Part shown: piece after piece, positions 7,601-57,600 of the stretch | Layout: the number at the start of each line of letters is the position of its first letter | Numbering within the stretch: the stretch's first letter is position 1 | Source: Sphaerolaimus hirsutus | Taxonomy: Eukaryota > Nematoda > Chromadorea > Monhysterida > Sphaerolaimidae | NCBI GenBank assembly: GCA_964036195.1 | Contig: OZ038454.1 | Span: forward strand, 8,928,001-8,992,000 | DNA: 64,000 bases | Reading direction: 5' to 3' | Notes under the pieces: generated by a model | Database searches by the model: none | What the model was told of the DNA's origin: nothing | The model's input: the letters and a program-made list of their open reading frames with translations, nothing else | Made by a program: the position numbers and the translations under genes

Positions 7601-10600
7601 GCCAAATCGGCATACGGAATTTAGACATCGCTAATCGGTCATCGGATTCAAAATTTAATCTGTAGGTTGTCCTGATCATCTCAAGTGTGGAACGATTCTA
7701 ATCGGCCCAGAAATGGCCGAGTTATAAGGATTCAAAGTCAATGGAAGATATACCTTTTTATAGACCCCCCTTACCTCGGAACTGGGGGATTATTGAAGTA
7801 AAGCAAAACAATCTGTCATAGCCCAGACCCCAAACCACAACATTCCCGAACAGCATCAGAATCAAGCAAGGTACGACAATTTTTGGTATTTTATGTATTT
7901 GTCGGTTCGGGTCTCGTTAACGAGACCCGAACCGACAAATTGAGCAAAAACGAAGGTGGTCGGCTCAATAATGTGACTGTTTGTCGTCACGTAGCCGTCA
8001 CAAGCTGTGAACGGTTTTTCTGTGACGACAACAGTCAGGAGTAAAACATTCAACGAGACCCAACCGACAAATGCCGATAACGAGGCTTTTTTGTCGGCAC
8101 ACGCTAAAATTTTGAAAAATTTGTGCGTTGTCGTGACAAAATGAGCATTGCCGACAGAAAAAAGTTTGCTGGCACAGCTCGCAGTGTAAACGCCGCTTAA
8201 CATGTTTTGGTGTGGATCAACCTGTCTCATTCAGGTTCAGAGCCAGATATTTGTGTTTAGTACATGCACGTGGCACCATTGCGACTCAATCGTACATACC
8301 GTAATTCGACTCTAGATAGGCGGGACCACCTGAGGCATCGGCGCACAAGTAAACCACTGCATGTGTAATGAGTCAACCAGGACCTCTGCCAACCCCTGTA
8401 CCTAATGACATGTGTAAATATTTACGCCCCATTATGCCATGTGTAATGAGTACACCCCCGTGCCATGTGCAAAATGGTAAACCCCATTGTGTTACGAGTA
8501 AACCTCTATGTGTAGCCTGTAAACCCCCTATGCATTTCCACAAGAACACGTGACATTACGGGGTTTGCTCATTACTAGTGATGTAAAAAGCGCCAGACTT
8601 TTGGCGCCAAGCGCCATGGCGCTTTTCCGGAACTAGCGCCAAGCGCCAATGGCGCCACAGCAAAATGGCGCCAAGCGCCAAAAGCGCCATGGCGCTTTTC
8701 TGGACCTTAGCGCCAAGCGCCAAAGGCGCCACGGGGCCATGGCGCCAAGCGCCAATGGCGCCAGCGCCAACATGATATTGCCTTTAATGATACAGGTGAG
8801 ACAAAGTACTATTTTCTTCACTTTCAATTACTTGTATTGCCAACAAAAACACAATGGTCAAATAATGGAAATAAATAAGTTGTCTTGCTCAACACACAAG
8901 GTTCAATTTAAAGCACTAAGGTTAACTTAGGTTAACTAAGACTGGTTCAAATATATAGCAAATTGCCTCTCTGAAGTGGTAGAAGCTGAAAGATTGTCTG
9001 GGGGTTGGGGGTTGCAGTGTTTCAATCTATTCAATATTTCAAGATTTAAAGTGCAAACTGTGAGATAACAGGGTAAAAATAGCTAAATTACATATCTGAG
9101 TAAAATACCTACCGTATTTCCTCGAAGTTCCCAGGGGGTTTATTTTTTCATAGTGGAAATTTTGAGGGGGGGGCATTTCGAGGGGGGGGGGCTTATTCGA
9201 GGGGGGAGTTATTATTTCGTCAGAAATTTTCGGGAAAGTCATACTAAAGAATACGCTTTTACATACCCCAAGCCGGTAATAAACGTGACCAAATAATGTA
9301 TGTAGGGACATACACGGACGTAAACGTACATCGCTACACAAACTAGCGTATACGTATAACTGCGATGCAAAATGGTCGCAATAAATACATCATGTTCCTT
9401 GCATACATGATGTACCTTATTCCAGAGGGGGGTATTTCGAGGCGGGGGGGTATTTTTTCCTCAGCTCGAAAACACCTGGGGGTATTTTAAGGGGGGGAGT
9501 ATTTCGAGGAAATACGGTATGTAAAATAATTACATACACGGCCAAAAATTGCTGAAAATAGGCAATAAGGCACACGAACACCGCGGCGCAATTATCACTC
9601 TCTGGCGCTTTTTTGGCGCTTTAAAAAATGGTAGCGCCAAGCGCCAATGGCGCCACTGGAAAGTAGCGCCAAGCGCCAAAAGCGCCATGGCGCTTTTCGG
9701 AAACACGGCGCCAAGCGCCAATGGCGCCACAGCATTTTAGCGCCAAGCGCCAAAAGCGCCATGGCGCTTTTTGCTTTGGCGCTAGCGCCAGGCGCCAGCG
9801 CCATGGCGCTTTCACATCACTACTCATTACACATGACATTACGGGGGTCGGCAGAGGTCCTGATTTACTGATTACCAACATATGCAGTGGTTCACTTGTG
9901 CGTCCGAGCCCCATGTGGCCCAGGTACAAACAAACTTGGGGTAGCCTGCGTGATGGCCAGCTTTAGGGTGCGGCTGTCCATATGGCTGCGGTGCTCCATA
10001 TCCGTTGGTCGGTGGTGCCGGTGTATTGTGACCATATGCGTTGATCGGTGGTGCCGGAGTGTTGGTATATCCTGTACTCGGCGGCCTGTGAACGTGGGCA
10101 GCGTTTGCCGCTTTACAGGTCATTTTACATGACCTGTTGACACTTTGCATGCCATTTGAAACTTTCCGGAGAGTTTTACATGATTTTTGACACTTTTAGA
10201 ACATTTTACTGGTTCAAGAAGTGCCCCCAGCTTACTGGTCATAGCTGCCCTGCTTTGCTTGGGCATAAGGCGGCACACTGGATGTTTTGTGGTCATACAC
10301 CCGCGGCGGTGCAGGATGATCGTACCCACCCTGCCTCGCTGAGTGGTGAATGTAAGAGGGCAGCTGCGGCGGGCCGCCTCCGTATACTGCGCACAGAAGT
10401 TGGCACGATCGTGATATTGTGTGAGCAACATACACATCAACCAGATTAAAATAGAATACTGTACTCCCTCGAAATACCCCCTTGAAATACAGCCTCGTTT
10501 AACCCCTCCCCCCCTCAAAATTTGCACTATCAACCCCCCCCCCCCCGGGCCATTTCGAAGAAATACGGTGGGCACCCTCTAGACAACCTGGATTCTCGAT

Positions 10601-11567
10601 GGGCTTGTGCTCGGCCGGGCAACATATAAAATCAACGCCCGAAAACCAGCATACATGCCTCTCGGGACACCTGGGGGCACTCCCAGACCCTGTAAAAAGA
10701 CCTGTAAAATGTCAAATGTCATGCAAAGTGTCAAAAGTCATGGAAAATGCCCTGCAAAATGGCAAGCGAGTTGCCATTTTGCAGGGCATTTTCCACGACT
10801 TTAGACACTTTACATGACATTTGACATATTACAGGGCTCTTTACAGGGTCTGGGATTGACACCTGTGCGTATAGTCGCCGCCCGACGGCAGGCATTTCAT
10901 GACGGCGCCGGCAATGTTTTTGGCTGGCGCGACACCCCCGGCACATTTTCCGCCCGTGACGCTGGTATATGGATTTGGAGCGGTCGGGTGACCGCCCGAC
11001 GGGTAGGTGTGGACTGTTTTGTCGCGGCAGCACACGTAGTTGAACCCGTTGAAGGTGCACGTGCTGCCCGCCGCGCACGAGGCCGTTGTTGCCGCTAAGT
11101 GTTGTTAGGGGGTGATTTTTGGTGATTTCAGATAAAGGCAAAATGTGTTTTTTTATTGAGTAATTGATTTTAAGGAGTGAAAAGATCTTATGCACACATC
11201 AACGGTTTTCCCCCACAGTAGGAATTATTCCATGGTGTGGATATATTCAAGGATTTACGGCATTTACTGGCCGTTTAATATTTTACATGAATTTTGACAC
11301 TTTGACATTTTACACTCTTTACACCACATTTTACAGGGTTCGAAAGTAACCCCTGCTCTATTAAACCTCAACAAAACCCAACACCCCCTCACAAGGATGC
11401 GGCAAACATGACAAAACGGCGCCGGCCGCGTCGTGCTCCGGCAAGCCGCCGTCCTTGCAGCGGATCATTTGAGCGTAGGCGCCATTGTCGACGGCCGATG
11501 AAAACACTGAGCAGTGAAGTAGGACCAAGGCTGTTAGGGGTAGGGTTGAAATGGGATTGGTACCCAT
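1680..11567 (-). CDS. Secreted lustrin-type cysteine-domain, Pro/Tyr-rich protein
   Basis: Eight exons on the minus strand: 11567-11393, 11094-10863, 10670-10588, 10386-10236, 10085-9936, 2968-2803, 2590-2305, 2068-1680. Together they make 543 aa with all phases matching. Residues 1-25 are a signal peptide (hydrophobic core LTALVLLHCSVF). Two lustrin-type cysteine domains follow. The first has C37, C54, C65, C71 and the pair C80-C81. The second has C109, C126, C137, C143 and C152-C153 (CPERHVC, then a CC pair). The rest is Pro/Tyr/Gln-rich, with PAPPPYG, PPINAYGHN and YGQ-type repeats, and ends NAIQDGYPFK. Such proteins are usually extracellular matrix or cuticle components; that role is inferred. 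The 83-bp exon at 10670-10588 was found because the phase failed without it and half a domain was missing. The 7-kb fifth intron holds nested transposons. The ATG is the only one leading into the signal peptide. Confidence 0.82.
2591..2802 (-). mobile_element. Intron with a CAGTCCC...TGTAAA foldback element
   Basis: This 212-bp intron of the lustrin-type gene contains a foldback element of about 155 bp. Its arms start CCTGGGGGCAGTCCCGA (minus strand) and end GGGGGACTGCTCCAGGG. It belongs to the same family as the element that constitutes the intron at 10671-10862, but here extra intron sequence lies on both sides. Confidence 0.65.
2985..3360. mobile_element. Diverged element with GCGGCGTTTACACTGC end
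   Basis: The end AAGCGGCGTTTACACTGC at about 2991 recurs inverted near 8185-8200. Both copies carry GTGCCGACAAA and GTCGTCAC-type words inside. This looks like a diverged copy of one non-autonomous family. I could not fix its second end or a TSD. Confidence 0.35.
3442..3600. mobile_element. TACCGTAT-family element, truncated copy
   Basis: The left end TACCGTATTTCCTTGAAATA is followed by C-runs and an inner block with GCATAACACACGTTAAAA, as in full copies of this family. No matching right end is present before the mariner-like element at 3618. Confidence 0.5.
3618..3706. mobile_element. Mariner-like miniature element (89 bp)
   Basis: A hairpin with arms TTAGGTTGGAAAGAAAGTTC and GAACTTTCTTTCCAACCAAA is flanked on both sides by TA. 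The TTAGGTTGG start and TA duplication are typical of mariner elements. Only 89 bp remain, with no coding capacity, so it must depend on a transposase elsewhere. Confidence 0.75.
3855..4269. mobile_element. TACCGTAT-family element with C/G runs
   Basis: It starts TACCGTATTACCTCGAATTA and ends GGGGGTATTTCGAGGTAATA. Between them are long C-runs and the family's inner AACACACGTTAAAA block. TA-flanked ends and lack of coding capacity suggest a Tc1/mariner/pogo-type non-autonomous element. Confidence 0.7.
4356..4785. mobile_element. TACCGTAT-family element with long G runs
   Basis: It is bounded by TACCGTATTTTCTCGAAATA and its inverse TATTTCGAGGAAATACGGTA. Inside are G tracts of up to about 15 bases, the phrase GTTTCATAGTGGTCTCGAGA, and the inner GTGTGTTCTGCA block. 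It lies only 87 bp from the copy at 3855-4269. Confidence 0.75.
4786..6816. repeat. AT-rich intronic repeats
   Basis: This stretch lies inside the long intron. It contains GAGTACAGAAAACGTATTT-type dispersed repeats at about 5090-5510, related to copies near 47.2-47.6, 60.0-60.4 and 61.9-62.4 kb. It also holds an A/G-rich block of (CGGAAAA) words at about 6110-6620. I see no coding sequence; open frames here follow the low-complexity DNA. Confidence 0.5.
6817..7878. mobile_element. Large foldback element (about 1.06 kb)
   Basis: The left arm begins TGTCGTACCTGGCCGATTTT and runs through GGGGTTTGGGGTCTG near 6855. The right arm contains the inverse CAGACCCCAAACCACAACAT and ends AGGTACGACA near 7878. 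Inner segments (GGGCCGATTTGGATTGTTC and its diverged inverse near 7700) also pair, so most of the element is one long inverted repeat. No ORF of note. Confidence 0.55.
7897..7940. repeat. 44-bp perfect palindrome
   Basis: ATTTGTCGGTTCGGGTCTCG on the left is mirrored exactly on the right, with centre GTTAAC and no spacer. It lies at the edge of a block carrying GTCGTCAC and TGCCGACA words (7980-8205) that ends in GCAGTGTAAACGCCGCTTAA. Confidence 0.8.
8576..9822. mobile_element. hAT-like GGCGCC element with 8-bp TSD
   Basis: The ends TAGTGATGTAAAAAGCGCCA and GGCGCTTTCACATCACTA are inverted copies. The direct repeat CTCATTAC flanks both sides exactly (8568-8575 and 9823-9830). An 8-bp duplication and TAGTGATG ends are typical of hAT elements. 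Blocks of GCGCCAAGCGCC lie near both ends. It encodes no transposase and is itself interrupted by the TACCGTAT element at 9110-9519. Confidence 0.85.
9110..9519. mobile_element. TACCGTAT-family element nested in a hAT-like element
   Basis: It starts TACCGTATTTCCTCGAAGTT and ends with the inverse TTCGAGGAAATACGGTA. G-runs lie inside both ends. It lies entirely within the hAT-like element at 8576-9822. Confidence 0.8.
10086..10235 (-). mobile_element. Intron derived from the CAGTCCC...TGTAAA family
   Basis: This 150-bp intron reads GTAAGCTGGGGGCACTTCTT at its 5' end (minus strand) and contains the family words CATGTAAAA, GCAAAGTGTCAA and GACCTGTAAA. It lacks a recognisable unrelated segment, so it appears to be a decayed copy of the same foldback element that forms the intron at 10671-10862. 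Confidence 0.55.
10459..10570. mobile_element. TACCGTAT-family element, short diverged copy
   Basis: Ends resembling TACTCCCTCGAAATAC and ATTTCGAAGAAATACGGT enclose C-runs. This internally deleted copy lies in the 201-bp intron between the 83-bp lustrin exon and the next exon. Confidence 0.6.
10671..10862 (-). mobile_element. Introner-like element: whole intron is one foldback MITE
   Basis: The intron (192 bp, minus strand) begins GTGTCAATCCCAGACCCTGT and ends GGGTCTGGGAGTGCCCCCAG. Its two halves of about 92 bp are near-complete inverted copies meeting near TGGCAACTCGCTTGCCA, so no non-element intron sequence remains. CAGGTGTC occurs at both edges; splicing at CAG|GTGTC removes the element plus one copy and restores an uninterrupted lustrin domain (THRCPERHVC). 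The repeat may be a TSD or partly the element's own terminus, since other copies start CCTGGGGGCAGTCCC. Confidence 0.75.
11095..11392 (-). mobile_element. Intron carrying a diverged CCCTGTAAA-family copy
   Basis: Intron 1 of the lustrin-type gene contains, on the minus strand, CGAACCCTGTAAAATGTGG followed by AAAATGTCAAAGTGTCAAAA and CATGTAAAATATT. These are hallmark words of the family. The 3' half of the intron is unrelated AT-rich sequence. Confidence 0.5.
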
Positions 11568-11944
11568 TTTAAGGGTTTAGGGGGTGGTTGGATGTCGACT
11601 CTGCGCAGAGTGTGAAGGTCGATAAGTATGGATAAAAATTGATTGTTTTGTGCCGTCGCGGCGTGTTGCTCGACTGCAGTGATTTCGTTTTGATGTAGGT
11701 ATCTACATTCGTAAAAATGTAAATAGGTCATTGATAAGTTTTGCTGTACTGATCTGAACTGTGTTTCGCGAAAATTAACCGACTTGACCCTGCGTCGTGA
11801 CGGGGCAGTTAAAATATGAAAATGTCCACGCGTTTGCCGCAAAACTACTGCGTCCAACTGCCGCTGAACTTTGCACTGTGATGCGATGTAACGTGATTAC
11901 ATGTGTCCGACGGATTTCGTTGTTTTTCATGTTCTCCCTCGCAT

Positions 11945-12194
11945 TTACCGTATTTTCTCATACCGTATTTCCTCGAAATACCCCCCCCCCCCCGGGGGGT
12001 GATTGTTTCATAGTGGTCTCGAGAGGGGGGAAATACGGTATACCCCCTTGAATTAACCCCCCCCCACCTCGAAATACCCCCAAGTCTTTTCGAGCTGAGG
12101 TAAAAATAAATCCGCGTTAAAATACACCCATCAGCCTCAAAATTTTCACTCTGAAAAATAAAGCCCCTTGGTGGTAATTCGAGGAAATACGGTA
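11945..12194. mobile_element. TACCGTAT-family composite
   Basis: Two left ends lie 15 bp apart (TTACCGTATTTTCTCA and TACCGTATTTCCTCGAAATA). An inverse end lies at about 12040 and another (ATTCGAGGAAATACGGTA) at about 12194. This looks like one insertion next to, or inside, another of the same family. Confidence 0.6.
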
Positions 12195-12748
12195 TTTGCA
12201 TGTGGAGTGCGATAGCCAAAGTCAAACTTATCTGGACAACTGAAAACTAGATTTACTTATTCTGCGTGAAATTGAAACATCGGCTTTTAAATATGATGCT
12301 TCGACAAACTATGCAAAATGAACAAATATTCTCGGTAAAATCTTTATTTTTTTAAATACCTAGTTACCTACCTACATTGAATTGTGTTGGTGATCGGATT
12401 TTTTTTCATACTCGTGATCGGCACCGTAAATTTCTTTGTACAAATTACCTACCTATAAAAACCGCAAATGTAAATTTTACAGTTGCAGACAGTGGCGATT
12501 CTCAAACCGACTGTCTCAAACCGACCGAATTTGAACGCATAAATAAATTGCCATGCAACGTTAAAATGGGGTCAAAGGCGTGTCATTTCCAAGATCATCT
12601 CTTTTTACCGCGTTGTGTTATTTATGAACGATAGTTTTTCATCAAAAAATATAGTTTTTCACTGATTAAAGTTAGTGATAGAATTAGACAAATAGAAAAA
12701 TTAAGATGCAATTCGTCCCGAATGGCGGCACGGGCCGTATACCTATTA

Positions 12749-20300: not shown

Positions 20301-23300
20301 TTTATATCAGGTATGTTCTCACAACATTTTTTTGTAATGCAGTTGGGTGGCGAGCTTGTTTCTGACACTTGGGCTGTTCTTAAAAAAATTATCAAATTTA
20401 TATGCAGTGACCCATGCCTTAGTGGGTCGTCGGCAGCCGCCCCACTGGTGTATTGTGAGGGGGGTTGTTGGCAAGACATCCCCCAAATTTCAGCTTTCTA
20501 CGGCCCTCACAGCTGGAGATATAGCCTTCAAAGTGTAGCTAATCAAGTGGGTGGTAAACTTGCTTGGGACACCAAAACCGCCACAAAATTTTTTTGCATA
20601 TAGGGCGACCCACCCTGTAGTGAGTCGCCGCACCTCCCCCCATTGTTGGGGAGTAAGGGGGTCTTACAACTTAATATATACAAAGTTTCAGCCTTATAAC
20701 ACCCCCATGGACGGAGATATTGCATTCGAAGTGAAATAAAAAAATGGGTGGTGAACTTGTCCGGGAAGGTGTTTATATATGTTGACACTAGGTCATATCT
20801 GGGAGCTTTTAAAAAAAAACGTTTTTTAAAAAAAAACAACGTTTTTTTTTAAAAAAAAACATCGAGTTAAAAAAAACGTTTTTTTTCCAACCCTAGGTAG
20901 AATTACATGGCTGCCAGGTCTACATGGCCATTTGGTTTACAATGGCCGCTTCGAGGTGAATAGCCTTCGGTTGGGGGGCGGAAAATGCATGGGTGCGCGT
21001 AGGGATGGCTAGAGTTTTCAAAAAATGAATCAGGAGCATCGAAAACGTTTTTTTCATCCCTAGGTGCACTGCGCGCTGGAATATTTGGTTCTGTGTACGA
21101 AGTGTTTTGGGAGACACGAAAACGCCAAATATAAGCTAACATGACTGTTTAAGGATTTCCCCTTTCTGTTCTCCACTGTTGGACCATTTAAATAATTAGA
21201 TTTAAATAGAAAAAATCTATTAACACTACATCCTTTTTGATTAAGCAGCTAGAGAAAAATAGATGTTTTCTATCCCTAGCGCTGGTGTGTTCTTTCGCTC
21301 GCGGAACCAAAATTTTCAGTGTACGCGGCGACATACACCGCCTGGTATTTTTTCGTCTACCATTGGCGACAGAGGCCCAGGTTTAGTGCCACTGCACACT
21401 GACATTTTGTAAAAATGATGCGTTTGAGCGTTCACGGTAGCGGAAGTCATATTTTGTAAAAATTGTAATTTTCGGATGCGCATTTTTCCACCACGCGGGT
21501 GTATTTTACATAAAATCGAACCTGTACTCTCAATTTTCTCTTAAATACACGAAATGGCCGGCTAGTCGCTCTATATGTATGTATATTTACATACATATAA
21601 GCGATTTTTGGCGCCAGCGCCAATGCCATTGACGCCATGGCATGGCGCCTATGAATGGCGCCAGCGCGATGACGCCATTTCGCCACCGTGAAGGTAAAAA
21701 TTTAGGGGGGGGGGCTCTGGCTCCGTAAACATGTAGCCCCCCCGCTCCAAAATCATGGATACGTCCCTGGTTTCATGTACATAGATTTTTATCTCCGCAT
21801 TTGTAGTTCGGCATCCAAAAACGCGCGTCAATAATTCAAAATTTCTGTGTGTGGTGCGCCAATCAAAGCGTTTCCTCAAAAACGTGTGTCTCAGAGCTCA
21901 AGTTGACCGCTAGTTGAATGGGCGGTAGAGATTGGAATGGGGCTTGCTGTTTCTGTCCTTGTGAATAGTTTTGTTATTATTTACCTTAGCTGTCATTACA
22001 TTAGATGTTCAATTGTGGTGGGAATAGCTGTCATGGAAAACTTTCCCACGAAATATCGGTGTAAAATAGTTGGAAAAAGGTATAAAATGGAACTGGGGCC
22101 CTCTCCCAATTGGCCCCACACACGCTAGTTGACATTGACACAAATGTCAACTGGTTCCGGTCCCAATTCCAAGCTTGTATTTGAAGGTCGATCGTTGGCT
22201 CGCCAGCAAGCATTGAATTGGGATCGGAGCCAGTTGACATTTGTGTCAATGTCAACTAGCGTGTGTGGGCCAATTGGAGGGTCCCGCCCTGCGTTTTCTC
22301 ATGTTTGCCCTCCAAACCTCTATTTTCCGTTCTGATACACTAGATTTAGTTTGGCAGCTGGCCCGCTTTACAATTGCTGCCGGCGCATTTTTGTTGTGCA
22401 CATTGCCACTTCTCCAAATCCTTGCTTCTTACCGCCGTGCTGTGTGATTTGCGGCGAACTTCTCCTGTGTGTTTTGTCCGTGGGCAGTTTTTGAGGGTTG
22501 CACTGATCAAAATAGTGGCACATATAGTGCACAGGCACGCGTCTGGTTAAGTGTCGGTTTTTGTGCCTGTCGCTGTATAGTTTTCAAAACATATACAATT
22601 GTGAAAGAATTGCGTGCTAGGTATGCCTAATGTAAAAGATAGGACACACAATCACAGGCATCATTGTGCCCAATTCGTGTGTGTTTTTGCACACAATGCA
22701 GTCACTATTTATTAGTACAAATGCCCTTTACAAACACGATCCACAATCTTGACAAACAGGGTTAGTAGATGGCAAAGTTGCTTCCCAAGAATGCAATTGC
22801 ACATGTATAGGGGGTTGACTTGAGTTTTTAGGGGCTGAGTTTACAATTCAGGGTTGAGTTGATGGGTGTTTATAAATTAGGGTTGAGTTGACAGAAGTTT
22901 AAAAATAAGGGGCTGTTGACACAAGTTCACAAATTAGAGGCCGAGTTTATGGGAGTTGAGTTGATGGGTGTTTGCCAAATTAGGGGCTGAGTTTATGGGA
23001 GTTAACAATAACATTACCATAATCCTTAAGTGAGGCCCCCGGGGCCAAAACTTTCAAATTGTGAAATGATGCATTGTGGGTTTCTAATTACACTGATTTG
23101 ATATATAATGCACTCCATTTTGACACTACATTACCATAACCCTGAAAATGAACCACTGGGGCCAAAAACTTTCAATTTGTGAAATGATGCAATTTTGCGT
23201 TTCTGATTGAACTGATTTCAAATTTAGGTTTCTGATTGCACTGATTTGATATATGCACTCCATTGACACTACATTACCATAACCCGTTAATGAACCCATG

Positions 23301-26300
23301 GGGCCAAATACTTTCAATTTGAGAAATGATGCATTTTTGGGTTTCTGATTGCACTCATTTGAAATATGCACTTCATTTTGACACTACATTACCATAACCC
23401 TGAAAATGAACCACTGGGGCCAAAAACTTTCAATTTGTGAAATGATGCATTTTTGGGTTTCTGATTGCACTGATTTCAAATTTGGGTTTCTGATTGCACT
23501 GATTTGATACATGCACTCCATTTTGACACTACATTACCATAACCCTCAAAATGGACCCATGGGGTTAAATACTTTCAATTTGAGAAATGATGCATTTTCG
23601 GGTTTCTGATTGCACTCATTTGAAATATGCACTTCATTTTGACACTACATAACCATAACCCTAAAATGAACCCCCTGGGCCAAAAACTTTCAAACCATAA
23701 AATGATGGATTTGTGGGTTTCTGAGTGTAGCGATTTCAAATATGCCCAGGGCTTAAAAAATTAGAAATTGTGAAATGATTCAATGTGGGTTTCTAATTGC
23801 ACTGATTTGAAATATGCACTCTGTTTTGACACTACATAACCCTCAAAACTACATAACCATAACCCTGAAAATGAACCTCTGGAGCCAAAAACTTTCAATT
23901 TGTGAAATCATTCATTTTTGGGTTTCTGATTGCACTGATTTCAAATTTGGGTCTCTGATTGCACCAATTTGATATACCGTATTTCCTCGAAATACCCCCC
24001 CCCTCGAAATACCCCCCCCCCCTCGAAATACCCCCCCTCAAAATGGACACTATGAACTTATAAACCCCCCCCTCGAAATACCCCCCCCCAAATTTAGTGT
24101 ATAGAGAACGTAAATGACAAAGGCTGCGGTTTGTCATCTGGGTAATGCAAAACACACGTTAAAAACGATGACTCTGTTATGTGAGAACAGTGATTATACG
24201 TCTACACACTTATACAAGTCTTTAGAGTCTTATAAATGGCGATTTTTGTTGCATTTTCGACGTCTGCGTACGTTTCAGACGACAATTTAGTACTTGGTTT
24301 TCAAAAAATTTCTGGCGAAATAATAAACCCCCCCCCCTCGAAATACCCCCCCCCTCGTTTAACCCCCCCTCAAAATTCTCACTATGAAACAATAAACCCC
24401 CCGGGGGTATTTCGAGGAAATACGGTATGCACTCCATTTTGACACTACATTACCATAACCCTAAAAATGAACCCATGGGGCCAAATACTTTCAATTTGAG
24501 AAATGATGCATTTTTGGGTTTCTGATAGCACTCATTTGAAATATGCACTTCATTTTGACACTACATTACCATAACCCTAAAATGAACCCCCTGGGCCAAA
24601 AACTTTCAAACCATAAAATGATGGATTTGTGGGTTTCTGAGTGTAGCGATTTCAAATATGCCCAGGGCTTAAAAAATTAGAAATTGTGAAATGATTCAAT
24701 GTGGGTTTCTAATTGCACTGATTTGAAATATGCACTCTGTTTTGACACTACATAACCCTGAAAACTACATAACCATAACCCTGAAAATGAAGCTCTGGAG
24801 CCAAAAACTTTCAATTTGTGAAATCATTCATTTTTGGGTTTCTGATTGCACTGATTTCAAATTTGGGTCTCTGATTGCACCAATTTGATATATGCACTCC
24901 ATTTTGACACTACATTACCATAACCCTAAAAATGAACCCATGGGGCCAAATACTTTCAATTTGAGAAATGATGCATTTTCGGGTTTCTGAAAGCACTCAT
25001 TTGAAATATGCACTTCATTTTGACACTACATTACCATAACCCTAAAAATGAACCCCCTGGGCCAAAAACTTTCAAACCATAAAATGATGGATTTGTGGGT
25101 TTCTGAGTGTAGCAATTTCAAATATGCCCAGGGCTTAAAAAATTAGAAATTGTGCAATGATTTGATGTGGGTTTCTAATTGCACTGATTTGAAATATGCA
25201 ATCCATTTTGACACTACATAACCCTGAAAACTACATAACCATAACCCTGAAAATGAACCTCTGGAGCCAAAAACTTTCAATTTGTGAAATCATAAATTTT
25301 CAGGTTTCTGATTTCACTCATTTGAAATATGCACTTCATTTTCACACTACATTACCATAACCATAAAAATAAACCCCCTAAGCCAAAAACTTTCAAATCA
25401 TAAAATGATGCATTTGTGGGTTTCTGATTGTAGCGATTTCAAATATGCACTCCATTTTGACACTACATTACTAAAACCCTGAAATTGAACCCCTAGACCC
25501 AAAAATTTCTTATTGTGAAATGATGCATTTTGCAGGTTTCTAATTGCACTGATTTGAAATGACTCAATTTCAACTCTACATTACTGTAAGCCTTAAATTG
25601 AACCCATGGGGCTAATAAATTAGAAATTGTGAAATGATGCATTTGTGGCTTTTTGATTGCCTTGATTTGAAATATGCACTTCATTTTGACACTACATTAC
25701 CATAACCCTGAAAATGAACCCCCAGGGCCAAAAATTTTCAAATCATAAAATGATGTGTTTGTGGGTTTCTGATTGTAGCGATTTCAAATATGCACTCCAT
25801 TTTGACACCACATTACTAAAACCCTGATAATGAACCCCTGGGCACAAAAACTTTCAATTTGTGAAATGATGCATTTGTGGGTTTTTTATTGCACTGATTT
25901 GAGATGTGCACTCCATTTCTACTCTACATTACCATAACTTTTTAAGTCTAACCCCTGGGGCTAAAAAATTGAAGATTGTGAATTGATGCATTTGTGGATT
26001 GATGATAGTGATTTTTTGAAATATTCATACCATTTTCCAAATTAGGGGCTGAGTTTACAGGAGTTTCCAAACTAGGGGCTGTGTTTACAGGATTTAGAGG
26101 GGGTCCCCATGGGGTGCCATTTTTGGGGGGTCTCCAGGGGGTGCCATTTTCTGGAGGTACATATGGGGGTGCCATTTAAAGGGGGTCCACATGGGATGCC
26201 ATTTTTTGGGTGGTCCCCAGGGGTGCCATTTTTTGGTGGTCCTCAGGGGGGTGCTATATTTTTTTTTGCGGGGGGGGGGTCCATATGGGGTGCCATTTTG

Positions 26301-29300
26301 AGAGGGGTCCCCAGGGGGGTGCCATTTTTGGAGAGTCCCCAGGGGGAGCCAACTTTGGGTGGGTCCCCAGGGGGTGCCATTTTTGTGGGGGTTCCTAGGG
26401 GGTGCCATGTTTGGGGGGTCCCCAGGGGGTGCTATTTTTGGGGGGTCCCAAGGGGGTGCCATTTTTGGGGGGTCCCTAAGGGGTGCCATTTTCTGGTGGT
26501 CCTCAGGGGGTGCCATATTTGTGGGGCCCTAGGGGGTCCCATTTTTGGGCGGTTCCCAGGGGGTGCCACTTTTGGGGGGTTCCCCAGGGGGTGCCATTTG
26601 GAGGGGGGTCCCCATTGGGGTGTCAGTTTTTGCAAGCCTCTGAGAAGTGGGTACCTAAAGCAGGATTCTCTCCAACCTTCAGTTGGGTTTTGTAGAGTCC
26701 CCAGGGGGAGCCAACTTTGGGTGGGTCCCCAGGGGGTGCCATTTTTGTGGGGGTTCCTAGGGGGTGCCATGTTTGGGGGGTCCCCAGGGGTGCTATTTTT
26801 GGGGGGTCCCTAAGGGGTGCCATTTTTGGGGGGTCCCTAAGGGGTGCCATTTTTTGGTGGTCCTCAGGGGGTGCCATATTTGTGGGGCCCTAGGGGGTCC
26901 CATTTTTGGGCGGTTCCCAGGGGGTGCCACTTTTGGGAGGTTCCCCAGGGGGTGCCATTTGGAGGGGGGTCCCCATTGGGGTGTCAGTTTTTGCAAGCCT
27001 CTGAGTAGTGGGTACCTATAGCAGGATTCTCTCCAACCTTCAATTGGGTTTTGTGGTTCTCTACAATTTATACCACAAGGATTTACAAACACAAACAAAA
27101 CAGCAAAGCACAAATGTAACCAATTGAAGATTACAACAAAGTTTGACACCTTGCAAAAACCACACTATCATATCACAAAACCTATACCACACAGAATGCA
27201 CAGGGTCCCCAGGGGGGTGCCATTTTTGGAGAGTCCCCAGGGGGAGCCAACTTTGGGTGGGTCCCCAGGGGGTGCCATTTTTGTGGGGGTTCCTAGGGGG
27301 TGCCATGTTTGGGGGGTCCCCAGGGGGTGCTATTTTTATGGGGTCCCAAGGGGGTGCCATTTTTGGGGGGTCCCTAAGGGGTGCCATTTTCTGGTGGTCC
27401 TCAGGGGGTGCCATATTTGTGGGGCCCTAGGGGGTCCCATTTTTGGACGGTTCCCAGGGGGTGCCACTTTTGGGAGGTTCCCCAGGGGGTGCCATTTGGA
27501 GGGGGGTCCCCACTGGGGTGTCAGTTTTTGCAAGCCTCTGAGTAGTGGGTACCTATAGCAGGATTCTCTCCAACCTTCAGTTGGGTTTTGTGGTTCTCTA
27601 CAATTTATACCACAAGGATTTACAAACACAAAAAGAACAGCAAAGCACAAATGTAACCAATTGAAGATTACAACAAAGTTTGACACCTTGCAAAAACCAC
27701 ACTATCATATCACAAAACCTATACCACACAGAATGCACAGGGTCCCCAGGGGGGTGCCATTTTTGGAGAGTCCCCAGGGGGAGCCAACTTTGGGTGGGTC
27801 CCCAGGGGGTGCCATTTTTGTGGGGGTTCCTAGGGGGTGCCATGTTTGGGGGGTCCCCAGGGGGTGCTATTTTTATGGGGTCCCAAGGGGGTGCCATTTT
27901 TGGGGGGTCCCTAAGGGGTGCCATTTTCTGGTGGTCCTCAGGGGGTGCCATATTTGTGGGGCCCTAGGAGGTCCCATTTTTGGGCGGTTCCCAGGGGGTG
28001 CCACTTTTGGGAGGTTCCCCAGGGGGTGCCATTTGGAGGGGGGTCCCCATTGGGGTGTCAGTTTTTGCAAGCCTCTGAGTAGTGGGTACCTATAGCAGGA
28101 TTCTGTCCAACCTTCAGTTGGGTTTTGTGGTTCTCTACAATTTATACCACAAGGATTTACAAACACAAAAAGAACAGCAAAGCACAAATGTAACCAATTG
28201 AAGATTACAACAAAGTTTGACACCTTGCAAAAACCACACTATCATATCACAAAACCTATACCACACAGAATGCACACTGCACACCATCATACCAAATCGC
28301 AAACTGTCTACATTTTACTACCGAGTTTCATGCCCAACCATTTTACAGAAGTTTACAAAAATCCATTCCAAAACATTGCATCTTTGGTATTGGTCTTGTT
28401 ATTGTTGGTAGATTACATACCGCATTTCAAAACACATGCCTAGCATGTGGGCAAACTTAACTAAAGTATCATATTTTCTCCAATGGTATTAATTGTAGAG
28501 AACCACAAAACCCGACCGAAGGTCGGAGAGAATCCTGCTAGTATTATGACACTTACGGTATTTTTTTTAGTCACAGGCCACACTTCTTTTTGGCGTGATG
28601 TGTTGGTTTCACGGGAACACATAATCACGAGTTTGATTAGTCAATCATCAGTTATCACATTATCAGTTATCATTTATTATCATCATTATATCTCACATAA
28701 TTTGTGAATCGGGCACCAGGTAATCACCAGTGAAAGCCCGACCGATTTTCCGAATCTTGCTGTCTGAGATATCCACCGTTTCATTTACTAGGGCACCCAC
28801 ATAAACACCGTTTCGTTAACTTGGGCACCCACATAAATGAGTGGGCACCCACATAAACCCACCCTGTCTACCCGACAAGATCCTACATAACCCACCGAAC
28901 ACGCCCGGCAGGCATCTTTGGACTCTGCGCCGGGCAACCTGGCGCCGGGCGCGCTGCACCTAACGCCCGGCTCGTTGCCCACCACCGCGTCCGAGGTGAT
29001 GCTCGAGTCGATGCCGGCCGCCATCAGGAAGTTGGACGACGTGGAGGCGGAGAGGCACTTTGCCGATGAGAGTTGGTTGTGGGGCTGGTTTTGGGTGGGG
29101 GAGGGTTTGTGGGGCTCTGATTTAATGTGGAAATTGAGCGAGAATTTTCTCGATGAGTTTGTGATATCTTCACTTGAAGGTTTTTTCCACAAGTGTGTTA
29201 TGTCCACAAATTTCGATTTTTTTCAAAATCGGTTGTTTTGATTGTCATCATATTTATATCTTCCGTAGAAATCAAATAAGATAATCAAATGCGAAGTGAA

Positions 29301-44600: not shown

Positions 44601-45630
44601 TCGTGTTTTCATGATAATTGAGATGATTCAGATTTATCATTTTTGATTCACAATTGCGTTCAACGTAATCGCTTTGTATGCAGGTTTAGTTTGAATGTTC
44701 AGGTTCCAGCACCGTGCCCTGGAAAGTCGAGTGTCAATCAAAACAAAACAAAAAAGAAAAGAAATTTACTGAAATTTTGACAAATTTGTATGACATTTGA
44801 CAGTAGACTTTACAGGGCTCGGGACTGCCTCCAGGGTTCGATCACCCGTTGACCCACCAACTGATACGAATCTTCTATGGGCTATTTGGTGCACATTATT
44901 CTAGTGTCCTAGAATTTCAAATTGAACCAATTGATAACACCTATCATTTCACATCATAAATACAACACAATTTCCAGGAGGCGCTACACGGTGGCCTTCG
45001 GCGTGGAACTCATCGAAAATTTGGCCATTTTCGCGCTAGTCCACAGCATAGCGCATATTTCATGCTGGCACATGGCTTTACTCGCGAACGTGTGCCTGTT
45101 TTCCATGGGCATGGGTTTCATGCTTCTGTATTACGGTTGTTTACATCCTGTGTTGCCCTTTTGTGGAGGCTGCTGTCCTTGTACTGGTAGTTGGTTAAAT
45201 TGTGTTGTTTAGAGGGGATTTTTTGGGTGTTTTTGTAGATGCTTTTATGAGTTTGTTGATTTGTATTTTCTGTTAAGTTATGCAACATATGAAGGGGTGA
45301 AGAACAGATCATTGCCAATTAGGAAGGTTTTGTTTCAAACCGTCTCAATATACGATAATTTTTGAATTTTTTCTTTTATTTCTTACACACATGCGTTCAA
45401 AAAAGATATGATCCTCTCATTTATATTTTAGTTTTTTTGCTCCATTTGTTCTTCTAAGAGGCTCGACAAAATGGTTAGTGCACACACTCGCAGGTGCCGA
45501 TGCCCAAGCACCACCCGTCGGTGGTCCTGTCGAGGGTGGCCGGGATGTCCTGGTGCACGCAGCTGACAACCAAGTAGACAAGCCGCTGCGCCGGGCAAAG
45601 TTGCAGTCGCTCAATGAAGATACGCTCTGA
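41684..45630 (+). CDS. XK-related membrane protein (XKR/CED-8 family)
   Basis: Eight exons, 445 aa: 41684-41797, 42525-42788, 43028-43131, 43548-43668, 43865-44037, 44295-44510, 44978-45186, 45494-45630. Family hallmarks appear in order: an N-terminal membrane segment with ITDWLSDILVA, a second with IVPSLLLNVLSATW, QLGPTLWHIETL, then LRLFEAFMESAPQLL, SLAWALAAQHRSLRFAR, several further hydrophobic segments, and FMLLYYGCLHP near the end. XK-related proteins are multi-pass membrane proteins; XKR8 and worm CED-8 act as phospholipid scramblases during apoptosis. Which subtype this is cannot be decided, and no clear caspase site was seen. The first exon (MSTNNGARRYKLLLP) is the least certain part. 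Confidence 0.9.
41818..42020. mobile_element. CTACACACACTAGTTTTCACC MITE, right end decayed
   Basis: The left end CCTACACACACTAGTTTTCA continues to CCGTGACTTCGGTGAAAACTG. The right part contains GCAGTTTTCACCGATGTCAC and CGGTGAAAA but lacks the CTAGTGTGTG end. It matches the intact copy at 53407-53648 and lies in XK-related intron 1. Confidence 0.6.
42459..42491 (+). mobile_element. Helitron-like 3' terminus in XK-related intron 1
   Basis: The hairpin CCGGACCGAAGGTCCGG is followed by 12 bases and CTAG, then T. The arrangement and the GAAGG loop match the terminus at 28486-28541. It lies 33 bp upstream of the 42525 exon. Confidence 0.65.
43182..43343. mobile_element. CACACACGCTAGTTTACA foldback MITE
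   Basis: The arms GGCCCCACACACGCTAGTTT and CAACTAGCGTGCGTGGGCC are near-identical for about 65 bp. They include AAATGTCAACTGG and CCCAATTCAAAGCTTGCG. It is the closest relative of the copy at 22112 and lies in the XK-related intron 43132-43547. Confidence 0.78.
44705..44845. mobile_element. CAGTCCC...TGTAAA-family copy in XK-related intron
   Basis: The right end reads TTTACAGGGCTCGGGACTGC plus CTCCAGGG, the family terminus. Inside lie GACAAATTTGTATGACATTTGACA words. The left end is decayed. It sits within intron 44511-44977. Confidence 0.55.
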
Positions 45631-49300: not shown

Positions 49301-52300
49301 GTTACATACCGTATTTTCTCGAAATACCCCCCAAATTTAGTGTAGAGAACGTAAATGACAAAAGCTGCGGTTTGTGATCTGGGCAATGCAGAACACACCA
49401 GGGGTTTTGTAGATTTTGACCCCCGCGGGGGTTCATATAGATAGCAAATCGCTCCTCCGGAGGGATAGATAGCTGAATTTTTTTTTTTTGGGGGGGGGGG
49501 GGGTTCGCGGGGGTTTACAATATAGGCATAGAAGGGAGGGAAAGGAGAAAAATCGCTAGAAATAGGTGAAAAATAGCTAAAAATGGGTATATAAGGACAT
49601 ATAGTACTAAAAATAGCTTGAAATAGGCAGTCAGAAGCATGAACTAGTGATTTTGGAGGTTGAAATCAATATAAAAGTATGAAAAATAGCGATTTTGAGC
49701 GAAAATTGGGGTATAGTTTCCCAAAAATCGCTCCAGATAGGTAGATAGCTGGCCGATTTGGGGGGGGGGGTGTTTAGGGGATAGTAGCCCAAAATTTTGC
49801 CTCCGGGATAGATAGATAGCTGAGCGGGCCTCCGGGATAGATAGATAGCTGGCGGATTTGGGGGGGGGGTAACCCCCGCCCTACTAAACCCCTGGAACAC
49901 ACGTATAAACAATGACTGTGCAGCAACTTGAAAAGTTTTGTATCAACAGCAATCTTTGGCTACTATCCCCTGTATCGGCCCGATTGTTGAGAAATTTCAC
50001 CCCTGTATCAATATATTGAACCGCCGCGAACCCCCTCCCCCCACCTACAACCCTCCCCCCATCCCAGACTCGTACAAACTAACATGCATTTTCCTTTACC
50101 AAAAGCCTCTGGCACACACAGAAAGTGAGGGCAGTAGGTGCCGGCGTCCTTGCCGCACAAATTGTCGGTCGCTGCTCTGGCTTCTAGCTTCTCTCCAGAG
50201 TCTGATCGCAGCTGATATTTCAGACCCAATCCCAGCGCTGAGTAATCTGGTTTATTACTCCGCTCCTGAAGCCCGAGGCCGCCCAGAGGGCAGTCCCAGA
50301 CCCTGTAAAATACCCTGTAGAATGTCAAATGTCACGCAAAGTGTCAAAAGTCGTGTAAAATGCCCTACAAAATGGCAAACGTACGTTTCCAATTTCTCAG
50401 GGCATTTTACATGATTATTCACACTTTGCATGACATCTGACAATTTTCGGGGAACTTTACACGGTCTGGGACTGGCACCAGAGGGAATGGTGTATTACTC
50501 CGCTGCTGAAGCCCTAGGCCACCCTGAAGGCAGTTCCAGACCCTGTAAAATGCCCTGTAGAATATCAAATATCTCACAAAGTGTCAAAAGTCATGTAAAA
50601 TGCCCTACAAAATGGCAAACGTACGTTTGCAATTTCTCAGAGTACTTTACATGATTATTCACACTTTGCTCGACATCTGACAATTTACGGGGAACTTTAC
50701 AGAGTCTGGGTCTGGCACCAGAGGGAATGGTGTATTACTCCGCTGCTGAAGCCCTAGGACACCCTGAGGGCAGTTCCAGACCCTGCAAAATGCCCTGTAG
50801 AATGTCAAATATCACGCAAAGTCTCAAAAGTCATGTAAAATGCCCTACAAAATGGCAAACATATGTTTGCAATTGCTCAGGGTACTTTACATGATTATTC
50901 ACACTTTGCATGACATCTGACAATTTACAGGGAACTTTACAGGGTCTGGGACTGGCACCAGAGGGAATGGTGTATTACTCCGCTGCTGAAGCCCTAGGAC
51001 ACCCTGAGGGCAGTTCCAGACCCTGCAAAATGCCCTGTAGAAGTCAAATGTCACGCAAATTGTCAAAAGTCATGTAAATTGCCCTACAAAATGGCAAACA
51101 TACGTTTGCAATTTCTCAGGGCATTTTACGTGATTATTCACACTTTGCATGACATCTGACAATTTACAGAGAACTTTTCAGGGTCTGGGACTGGCACCGG
51201 AGGGAATGGTGTATTACTCCGCTGCTGAAGCCCTAGGCCACCCTGAGGGCAGTTCCAGACCCTGCAAAATGCCCTGTAGAAATCAAATGTCACGCAAAGT
51301 GTCAAAAGTCATGTAAAATGCCGTACAAAATGGCAAATGTATGTTTCCAATTTCTCAGGCCATTTTACGTGATTATTCACACTTTGCATGACATCTGACA
51401 ATTTACGGGGAACTTTACAGGGTCTGGGACTGGCACCAGAGGGAATGGTGTATTACTCCGCTGCTGAAGCCCTAGGACACCCTGAGGGCAGTTCTAGACC
51501 CTGCAAAATGCCCTGTAGAATGTCAAATATCACGCAATGTCTCAAAAGTCATGTAAAATGCCCTACCAAATGGCAAACATATGTTTGCAATTGCTCAGGG
51601 TACTTTACATGGTTATTCACACTTTGCATGACATCTGACAATTTACAGGGAACTTTACAGGGTCTGGGACTGGCACCAGAGGGAATGGTGTATTACTCCG
51701 CTGCTGAAGCCCTAGGACACCCTGAGGGCAGTTCCAGACCCTGCAAAATGCCCTGAATAATGTCAAATATCACGCAAAGTGTCAAAAGTCATGTAAAATG
51801 CCCTACAAAATGGCAAATGTACATTTGCAATTTCTCAGGGTACTTTACATGATTATTCACACTTTGCATGACATCTGACAATTTACGGGGAACTTTACAG
51901 GGTCTGGGACTGGCACCAGAGGGAATGGTGTATTACTCCGCTGCTGAAGCCCTAGGACACCCTGAGGGCAGTTCTAGACCCTGCAAAATGCCCTGTAGAA
52001 TGTCAAATATCACGCAATGTCTCAAAAGTCATGTAAAATGCCCTACCAAATGGCAAACATATGTTTGCAATTGCTCAGGGTACTTTACATGGTTATTCAC
52101 ACTTTGCATGACATCTGACAATTTACAGGGAACTTTACAGGGTCTGGGACTGGCACCAGAGGGAATGGTGTATTACTCCGCTGCTGAAGCCCTAGGACAC
52201 CCTCAAAATCTGCCGGATCCGGTGGATTTCCCCTCTCCTGAAGATATTCTTCATCCAGTTCGCCGTGGCATAGCGCGGCACAGATTAAATAAACCAGCAG

Positions 52301-52312
52301 TTTGAGTGACAT
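46370..52312 (-). CDS. Secreted protein with nine cysteine-rich modules (unrecognised family)
   Basis: Ten exons on the minus strand, 449 aa, all phases closing: 52312-52201, 50201-50084, 49105-48953, 48872-48744, 48201-48070, 47983-47855, 47772-47641, 47127-46999, 46940-46812, 46556-46370. Exon 1 encodes a signal peptide (MSLKLLVYLICAALCHG). Every other exon encodes one module of about 43-62 residues with pattern CGxxAGxxCPxxxC(V/I) followed by a fourth Cys, for example KKCGAAAGDNCPDWMCVAK. Eight internal modules are separated by phase-2 introns, which allows duplication without frameshift. The last module has an Asn/Gly linker and ends TAYC. I do not recognise the module; four conserved Cys suggest two disulphides, and secretion is inferred from exon 1. 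For module 1 an alternative acceptor exists at 50211 but breaks phase with exon 1. Confidence 0.8.
47190..47620. repeat. GTACTTTT/AAAGTACG dispersed repeat
   Basis: Words such as TGAGTAAAGGTAAATACGT, GTACTCGAGTATAAGTACTT and AAAAAGTACGCGTAAATG match repeats near 5.1-5.5, 60.0-60.4 and 61.9-62.4 kb. It fills the one large intron (46.999-47.641 boundary exons) between two nearly identical modules. Confidence 0.55.
49317..49923. mobile_element. TACCGTAT-family fragment split by a hAT-like element
   Basis: The left end TACCGTATTTTCTCGAAATA runs to GCAGAACACAC. After the hAT-like insertion the inner sequence resumes as GAACACACGTATAAACAATG. The right end is absent. It lies in the intron between modules 1 and 2 of the cysteine-module gene. 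Confidence 0.65.
49399..49894. mobile_element. hAT-like element CAGGGGTTTTG, 8-bp TSD
   Basis: The ends CAGGGGTTTTGTAG and CTACTAAACCCCTG are flanked by exact copies of GAACACAC (49391-49398 and 49895-49902). It shares ends and inner words (GATAGATAGCTGGCCGATTT) with the copy at 30039-30749. Confidence 0.85.
50265..52200. repeat. 240-bp satellite built from a foldback element
   Basis: About eight units are spaced 240 bp apart (GGTCTGGGACTGGCACC near 50463, 50943, 51182, 51420, 51660, 51900, 52140). Each unit contains inverted arms CAGACCCTGTAAAATGCCCT and TTTACAGGGTCTGGGACTGG of the same family as the intron at 10671-10862. They are joined by a spacer, GGAATGGTGTATTACTCCGC. Two-unit blocks (51388 and 51868) are almost identical. 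It occupies nearly all of intron 1 of the cysteine-module gene. Confidence 0.88.
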
Positions 52313-52883: not shown

Positions 52884-53022
52884 TACCGTATATTCTGAAT
52901 AACTCCCTCCTCTCGAATAACTCCCCCTTCTCGAATAACTCCCCCTTCTCGAATAACTCCCCCCTCAAAAACTTCAGACGAAAAAATAACTCCCCGGGGG
53001 ACTTATTCGAGGATATACGGTG
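52884..53022. mobile_element. TACCGTATATTC element
   Basis: It begins TACCGTATATTCTGAATAAC and ends GACTTATTCGAGGATATACG, with three copies of CTCGAATAACTCCC inside. It belongs to the same family as the elements at 30078-30225 and 58929-59331. Confidence 0.75.
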
Positions 53023-53406
53023 TATTGAATGTAAAATACCGTCGAGATGTTTTACAAATCAATTCATCTTTGGATTGTTGCTTATAAAAACAATGCATTC
53101 CGTGTAGATTGGTCATCCTCACTTTTCGTTGTGAAATAATCCCTGTACACCCTGTTGTTCCTGTTGAGTGTGTATTCATGACGGTATCACTTAACACGGA
53201 TTTTTCCCGGCTTAAATAACAATTTTCAGCCAAACTTTGTTGTTGCTCTGGTTCATGCTGTATAAAAATTAACAGAGTGCGTGCAAAAATACGTACCAAA
53301 ATACGTTTTCAGCTAATGCTATAGGAAGCAGGCTCGGCGGGATTTAATTTCAATCAGTGTAAAGTATTGAAAGGGAATAACAAATGTCCATTATTTATGC
53401 ATTATT

Positions 53407-57440: not shown

Positions 57441-57600
57441 TGGTGGAATGGCGCCTTAGGCGCTTGGCGCCCTTTCTATGGCGCCCCTGGCGCCTGGCGC
57501 CCACTTTCTGAAAGGCGCCCTTTTTCTGTGGCGCCCTTGGCGCCTGGGTGCCCTGCCCTAAAAGGGCGCCAAAATGGCGCCAGCTTAGTTTCAAGGTGAT
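57440..57600. repeat. GGCGCC-rich repeat block
   Basis: Starting near TAGTGGTGGAATGGCGCC, this consists of GGCGCCTGGCGCCC-type words, like the interior of the TAGTGATG hAT family. The right end and TSD are not identifiable. Confidence 0.45.

Follow-up and report, generated by a model that had tools for sequence, protein, structure and literature searches.

A fold-back transposon probably acting as an introner in the nematode Sphaerolaimus hirsutus

A 192-nt intron in a lustrin-type cysteine-rich gene of the nematode Sphaerolaimus hirsutus is, with a probability of roughly 0.87, a copy of a non-autonomous DNA transposon (a miniature inverted-repeat transposable element, MITE) acting as an introner, that is, a transposon that creates introns. 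It lies on the minus strand at positions 10671-10862 of the window, by which the whole stretch of 64,000 nucleotides analysed here is meant (assembly GCA_964036195.1, contig OZ038454.1, positions 8,928,001 to 8,992,000). Judged from the sequence, the transposon probably makes up the whole of this intron and created it. The initial annotation of the window had also proposed that the element created the intron, which is favoured by the exact fit of element and intron, by copies at GT...AG boundaries in other coding sequences and by uninterrupted innexin sites in the same genome, whereas the origin it proposed for the splice sites did not hold. The features of the locus are as follows.

10671..10862, minus strand: predicted intron of 192 nt, GT..AG, phase 2, in the lustrin-type cysteine-rich gene (from the sequence, the spliced frame and a Pfam Lustrin_cystein match across the junction)
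10674..10862, minus strand: fold-back element of 189 bp, GTGTCAATCCCAGACCCTGTAAA ... TTTACAGGGTCTGGGAGTGCCCC (ends set by comparison with other copies)
10671..10673, minus strand: second copy of the target-site duplication, reading CAG in gene direction and providing the AG of the 3' splice site (comparison of copies)
10863..10865, minus strand: target-site duplication, copy 1, CAG, at the end of the upstream exon (comparison of copies)
10771..10863, minus strand: inverted repeat, 5' arm in gene direction
10673..10765, minus strand: inverted repeat, 3' arm in gene direction
10863..11095, minus strand: upstream exon sequence, AATTASCAAGSTCTF...CLPSGGDYTH and the first two bases of a split R codon (spliced frame; the span as read, not the outer exon limit)
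10574..10670, minus strand: downstream exon sequence, ...CPERHVCWFSGVDFICCPAEHKPIENPGCLEG (spliced frame; the span as read, not the outer exon limit)

On the minus strand, the predicted intron begins with GT at 10862-10861 and ends with AG at 10672-10671. The two arms of the inverted repeat (10673-10765 and 10771-10863) are 93 nt each, 90% complementary and separated by a loop of 5 nt, and the predicted RNA fold of the intron reaches -143.2 kcal/mol, compared with a mean of -46.3 for shuffled sequences (z = -22.6), with none of the 200 shuffles folding as well. The earlier description of the intron as one fold-back transposon was confirmed by these arms and by the ends of other copies. The pieces of the lustrin-type gene span 10,574-11,095 on the minus strand, and the unspliced frame hits a stop a few codons inside the element. 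Excision of 10671-10862 joins ...CLPSGGDYTH|RCPERHVCWFSGVDFICC... in frame, and the predicted spliced junction (10863/10670) reads CAG|GTGTCCCGAG. The joined peptide was matched by Pfam Lustrin_cystein over the full model (1-46 of 46, residues 33-79, with the junction at residue 60), so that the restoration of a lustrin-type domain and of phase, as first claimed, held up with a match that stays below the curated cut-off.

By searching the 348 Mb assembly that contains the window, copies of the element were found in at least 40 distinct places, including the copy at 10674 (80 matches in both orientations of the palindrome, from the best 40 of 1616 candidates scored); among the matches listed, the best-row identity of the 39 other places was 89-94%. 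The consensus of the copies is 189 bp long, GTGCCACTCCCAGACCCTGTAAA...TTTACAGGGTCTGGGAGTGCCCC. Median identity to it was 93.7% across 38 aligned copies, two of the 40 having been left out of the alignment (L037 for an assembly gap and L039 for displaced ends), and the copy at 10674 is 95.8% identical to it. Apart from the loop, the two arms of the consensus palindrome are symmetric except for one internal base and two of the four terminal bases (GTGC versus GGGG). What had been noted with caution as a diverged left terminal inverted repeat (TIR) is explained by this rule of the family, whose two ends differ in their outermost bases. An internal acceptor, TTTTTACAG, was considered in reading the consensus and rejected in favour of the outer CAG, as splicing there would retain 19 nt and disrupt the reading frame.

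The family ends are GTGCCANTCCCAGACCCTG... and ...CAGGGTCTGGGANTGCCCC, with a 3-bp CWG duplication on the flanks, and the element ends GGGGCANTCCCAG directly adjoin this CWG. Among the 40 copies, the flanking triplets were CAG/CAG in 19, CTG/CTG in eight, another left triplet with a right CAG in ten and other combinations in three, giving a matching CWG duplication (CAG/CAG or CTG/CTG) in 27. Judged from their flanks, several places look like duplicates (L023-L025; L016 and L032; L008 and L013), so that these 40-copy counts do not all represent independent events. The element end itself, GTGCC or GTGTC, is conserved in 31 of 40 copies (GTGCC in 28; the GTGTC variant of the 10674 copy in three); the sequence beyond the right-hand CAG is variable. 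Because the copies share only three bases per side outside the element, the target duplication is the 3-bp CWG and not the 8-bp CAGGTGTC repeat. Short length, TIRs, a target duplication of constant length and a high copy number are all features of a MITE, and the family appears to have no coding capacity, judged from length and sequence. As expected of an introner, similarity among the 40 copies reaches the GT boundary and the neighbouring CAG or CTG, with support for intron status confined to copies in coding context. Diverged partial pieces of the family were also detected in the window by blastn at 10102-10228, 11280-11339, 44775-44832, 2698-2777 and 48264-48309, the first of them apparently within a neighbouring intron of the lustrin-type gene.

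The genome-wide search for the element at GT...AG boundaries, suggested in the initial annotation, did find copies in coding sequence. Flanks were joined at the duplication and the frames read, and 34 spliced peptides picked by eye were submitted to Pfam, representing 31 loci and an array elsewhere in the window (L029 was sent twice and L009 in two frames). A domain above the curated cut-off spanned the junction in eight of the 34 peptides, from seven genes (one gene being present in two near-identical copies):

L036: trypsin, spanning the junction, above the Pfam cut-off
L013: innexin, spanning the junction, above the Pfam cut-off; protein and model lengths equal
L024 and the near-identical L023: Fringe-like glycosyltransferase, spanning the junction, above the Pfam cut-off
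L019: Glyco_transf_7C (galactosyltransferase), spanning the junction, above the Pfam cut-off; protein and model lengths equal
L034: zf-CHCC of NDUFS6, above the Pfam cut-off, with three residues upstream of the junction; protein and model lengths equal
L061: Oscp1 (OSCP1), spanning the junction, above the Pfam cut-off; protein and model lengths equal
L091: cadherin, spanning the junction, above the Pfam cut-off; 72 residues on 59 model positions

Weaker matches across the junction were obtained for lustrin (L001), ANF_receptor (L021), MFS_1 (L010) and adh_short (L006, with the element reversed). For NDUFS6, 119 of 120 homologues (the best 120 of 1276) were free of gaps within eight residues of the junction; among the matches listed, the nearest named sequence was that of Romanomermis culicivorax (73%), other nematodes and insects scoring lower, which, taken by itself, would tentatively place the host among nematodes close to Mermithida, though not as R. 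culicivorax. As side observations, two family copies lie 1.3 kb apart on contig C1 (L090 and L091, at about 7.36 Mb), seemingly in one cadherin gene, and one of them splits the conserved DQNDNAP motif. The reversed copy L006 (G000:C4:20872943-20876132) lies within a short-chain dehydrogenase, in its Gly-rich motif, the adh_short match being just below the cut-off; it has no outer GT donor and carries an in-frame internal GTAAA donor, with a +6 combination also possible.

When a 51-residue innexin peptide was compared with the genome, 19 of 28 matches ran unbroken for at least ten residues on both sides of the insertion point (two of them with an in-frame TGA), and four further rows, corresponding to two element-bearing loci, were broken exactly at this point. 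One row stopped before it. The 19 matches represent uninterrupted sites in the same genome, and therefore intron gain at the innexin insertion point is the simplest reading of these sequences. Both the innexin matches and the NDUFS6 homologues thus correspond to what is expected of an introner, namely insertion into an exon, with an intron where related genes have none.

A second group of copies in the window forms a tandem array:

50287..52156, minus strand: eight further family copies, 191-192 bp each, in a tandem array of 240 bp period (77-82% identical to the copy at 10674)
52157..52312, minus strand: 5' exon of the array gene, with a signal-peptide-like start, MSLKLLVYLICAALCHGELDEEYLQERGNPPDPADFEGVLGLQQRSNTPFPL (start codon picked by eye)

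Each of the seven spacers between these copies consists of CAG and a 45-nt exon coding for GVLGLQQRSNTPFPL or a close variant, and the exons join into one open frame that leads from the signal-peptide-like start through 15-residue repeats to a Cys-rich exon, giving a secreted-looking product; a shortened form of this protein had no match in Pfam. The left triplet is CTG in seven of the eight copies and CCG in one, and the acceptor is CAG in seven of eight. The likeliest history suggested by this arrangement is a single insertion followed by tandem duplication of exon and introner.

The abundance of the family was further estimated with patterns of 22 places (one of them free), the counts of which refer to element ends and not to whole copies. 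Next to CAG, the genome contains 1764 matches to the donor-side end and 1337 to the acceptor-side end; the donor-side end has a further 1522 next to CTG. Each reversed control pattern gave zero. From the 1764 left-CAG places, 100 were listed and 58 fetched, and a second end was recognisable within 400 bases in 50 of these 58. It was followed by CAG in 37 copies, CAG with one base off in six, CCG in three, CTG in two, and CCT and GGC in one each. Lengths were 116-200 bp in 43 of the 50 and 311-355 bp in seven, where another copy may have supplied the second end. When the ends listed for part of contig C1 were paired (from 100, 85 and 69 ends), 22 left-CAG/right-CAG and five left-CTG/right-CAG pairs resulted.

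Several observations weigh against the introner reading. The basis for splicing is reading frames and domains, not RNA. The Lustrin_cystein match (E 2e-4, 22 bits) is under the curated cut-off of 27, and an empty-site paralogue of the lustrin-type gene was not found in the genome at E 0.001, a paralogue search within the window giving one weak partial match at 11400-11462. Among the 34 spliced peptides, 26 had no domain above the cut-off across the junction (no match, a weak one or a one-sided one), and some coding-looking copies are without a canonical outer site, namely L006 and also L027 and L029, the latter two having a CTG duplication and no Pfam match. In the innexin comparison, four of 28 rows stop 3-7 residues past the insertion point. 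The last acceptor of the array is CTG, which was nevertheless used as the cut point in joining the frame; the first AG after it is 18 nt further on and, by inspection, in frame. In the left-CAG sample, the acceptor side was CTG in two of 50 copies, and five more were without CAG. The donor-side CAG:CTG ratio is only 1.16, a modest excess of 242 among 3286; from this near balance it is probable that the majority of copies are ordinary insertions lying outside exons and, as with MITEs in general, gene direction seems to have no bearing on most insertions. Finally, no autonomous partner was found: the genome holds at least 163 matches to DDE_Tnp_4, and of the three loci read among them none carries the introner TIR at its ends.

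Among other explanations, the best surviving, which is nevertheless unlikely, is that a MITE landed in an older intron or replaced most of it, so that the present splice sites were not made by the element. MITEs often insert into introns, the degraded family piece at 10102-10228 apparently occupies a neighbouring intron of the same gene, and the missing empty-site paralogue of that gene would be in keeping with an older intron. Against this, no base of the intron is left over at either end once the element, with its family ends, and the CAG duplication are taken together, and the same exact fit recurs in other genes, 19 of the 28 innexin matches being unbroken. A simple remnant within an older intron was rejected on the exact fit of the ends and the unbroken innexin matches. 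It is still less probable that there is no intron at all and that the element is a disabling insertion in a pseudogene or in a rare allele of the assembled animal. Intron status at the lustrin-type gene was read from DNA and not from transcripts, and some copies, such as L006, look disruptive; yet several conserved genes show the same arrangement, with reading frames preserved to either side and, in four cases, a domain match of exactly the model's length, and the array holds eight copies in one open spliced frame. Least credible is the earlier proposal that an 8-bp target duplication CAGGTGTC, of the kind left by hAT-type transposons, supplies both donor and acceptor: this direct repeat is really present at 10666-10673 and 10858-10865, but across the other copies only the 3-bp CWG is repeated, GTGCC/GTGTC belongs to the element end and the bases past the right CAG vary, so that the duplication supplies the acceptor AG alone and the donor GT comes from the end of the element; the GTGTC with which the downstream exon begins is most plausibly a coincidental match to the end variant of the 10674 copy.

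If the 192-nt intron is an introner copy, as preferred here, its formation could be described in a few steps. The element would have been moved by a cut-and-paste transposase of PIF/Harbinger-like type (PHIS superfamily, NuwaI-type). At sequence level, an insert in the favourable orientation, with a CAG target on the coding strand and the GTGCC end first, reads exon-CAG|GTGCC...GCCCC-CAG|exon, its donor GT being the element's own end and its acceptor AG part of the duplicated target. Removal by the ordinary spliceosome, with the long hairpin bringing donor and acceptor together, would restore the uninterrupted mRNA exactly. Copies in other configurations are without one splice site. Copies inserted forward at CTG would need a T-to-A change at the acceptor, as the innexin copy L013 and the window array appear to have, and CAG-reversed copies could exit through the internal GTAAA donor, adding 18 nt in frame. 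At the array locus, tandem duplication of exon and introner would then have produced a protein made of repeats, each with its own intron.

A broader and clearly more tentative interpretation is that this transposon has become adapted as an intron in an animal: two terminal bases would make one end a 5' splice site, a T-to-A change would rescue the acceptor, GTAAA would offer an exit when the element is reversed, and amplification of exon and introner would build repeats. The combination of another left triplet with an acceptor CAG, as the rescue would leave it, was found in ten of 40 copies and the reverse in none, with the caveat of the two copies with a CTG acceptor among the 50 selected for a left CAG. 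If this interpretation is true, the family would generate introns in large numbers and also give rise to repeat proteins. The array itself illustrates one way in which a single new intron might lead to a protein with repeated exons and introns. The origin of introns is a long-standing question, and thousands of related copies together with empty sites in a gene family of the same genome could make intron gain, recruitment of splice sites and selection on target and orientation measurable in an animal.

Regarding the transposase, the CWG target duplication typical of PHIS and NuwaI elements was present in 27 of 40 copies. With respect to the GGG start of NuwaI, one end of the element reads GGGG and the other GTGC. 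An 8-bp target duplication of hAT type was not seen, as only 3 bp repeat across copies. Each of the three DDE_Tnp_4 loci read has one internal 13-base match with at most two mismatches to the GTGCC end pattern. As these three loci are without introner ends, the family is a candidate and not an established member of NuwaI; its CWG target resembles that of this PIF/Harbinger-like group. The three copies (L102-L104) are 97-98% alike, and most full-length DDE_Tnp_4 matches listed are interrupted within the match by about four TGA stops, which may reflect an intron.

Apart from the element family, several other repeats were observed in the window. GCGCC/GGCGC-rich arrays with a period of 74 or 50 occur at 8609-8763, 9634-9771 and 57466-57570; variants of CGAGGAAATACGGTA beside long runs of G or C form a recurrent repeat family, as seen by eye, at 9110-9525, 10450-10570, 11940-12195, 49310-49330 and 52885-53030; and two large tandem arrays (23011-25997 and 26092-28067) consist of units of about 116 bp and 27 bp, with a 361-bp repeat inside the second. 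Both strands of the mitochondrial contig C762 (L082-L083) carry genes. COX1 is readable with code 5, and among the matches listed it matched an unnamed sequence at 89% and named insects at about 65%. The gene order around cox1 is presumably nad1 reversed, cox1, atp6, which we take to be unlike the usual arthropod order. Part of this contig gave no match in Rfam.

Introners are already known as a kind of element; within the literature searched, this family is a new addition to them, and so, probably, is its host lineage: no report of this element family was found in the available parts of the introner literature searched or of mermithid genome and reassembly papers. The following comparisons likewise draw on partial texts of the cited papers. 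In a 2022 survey, introners were reported in only two animal groups, compared with the nematode host here, and most introner families were described as leaving mRNA length unchanged (Gozashti et al. 2022, PMC9860276). In the Chrysochromulina example of that survey (Fig. 2C), the transposon also equals the intron end to end, with the donor in the element and the acceptor co-opted at the insertion site; it differs in having 4-bp duplications and no TIRs, compared with a 3-bp CWG duplication here and TIRs that make up nearly the whole element. Among the introner classes, the present element fits the one in which the transposon brings its own 5' site and recruits the 3' site (PMC9860276). NuwaI transposons, members of the PHIS superfamily related to PIF/Harbinger and found mainly in animals, share the 3-bp CWG duplication, and their TIR, which usually starts with GGG, agrees with one end of the element; they encode a DDE transposase and have TIRs of 12-61 bp, whereas short fold-back copies with one GTG end and a TIR of about 92 bp are found here (PMC4482050). 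The introner elements of Amoebophrya resemble the family in that inverted repeats give the intron a hairpin fold that brings the exon boundaries together, where direct repeats of 3-5 nt are found, but they concern a subset of non-canonical introns with inverted repeats of 8-20 nt that are not family-specific (PMC7789003), in contrast to the canonical GT-AG borders, long arms and one clear family described here. Similarly, in the nonconventional introns of euglenids, a stable RNA structure unites the intron ends, as the long hairpin may do in S. hirsutus, yet those introns have neither conserved borders nor complementarity to U1 (PMC6221363, PMC4770533), whereas the borders of the present intron are GT-AG.

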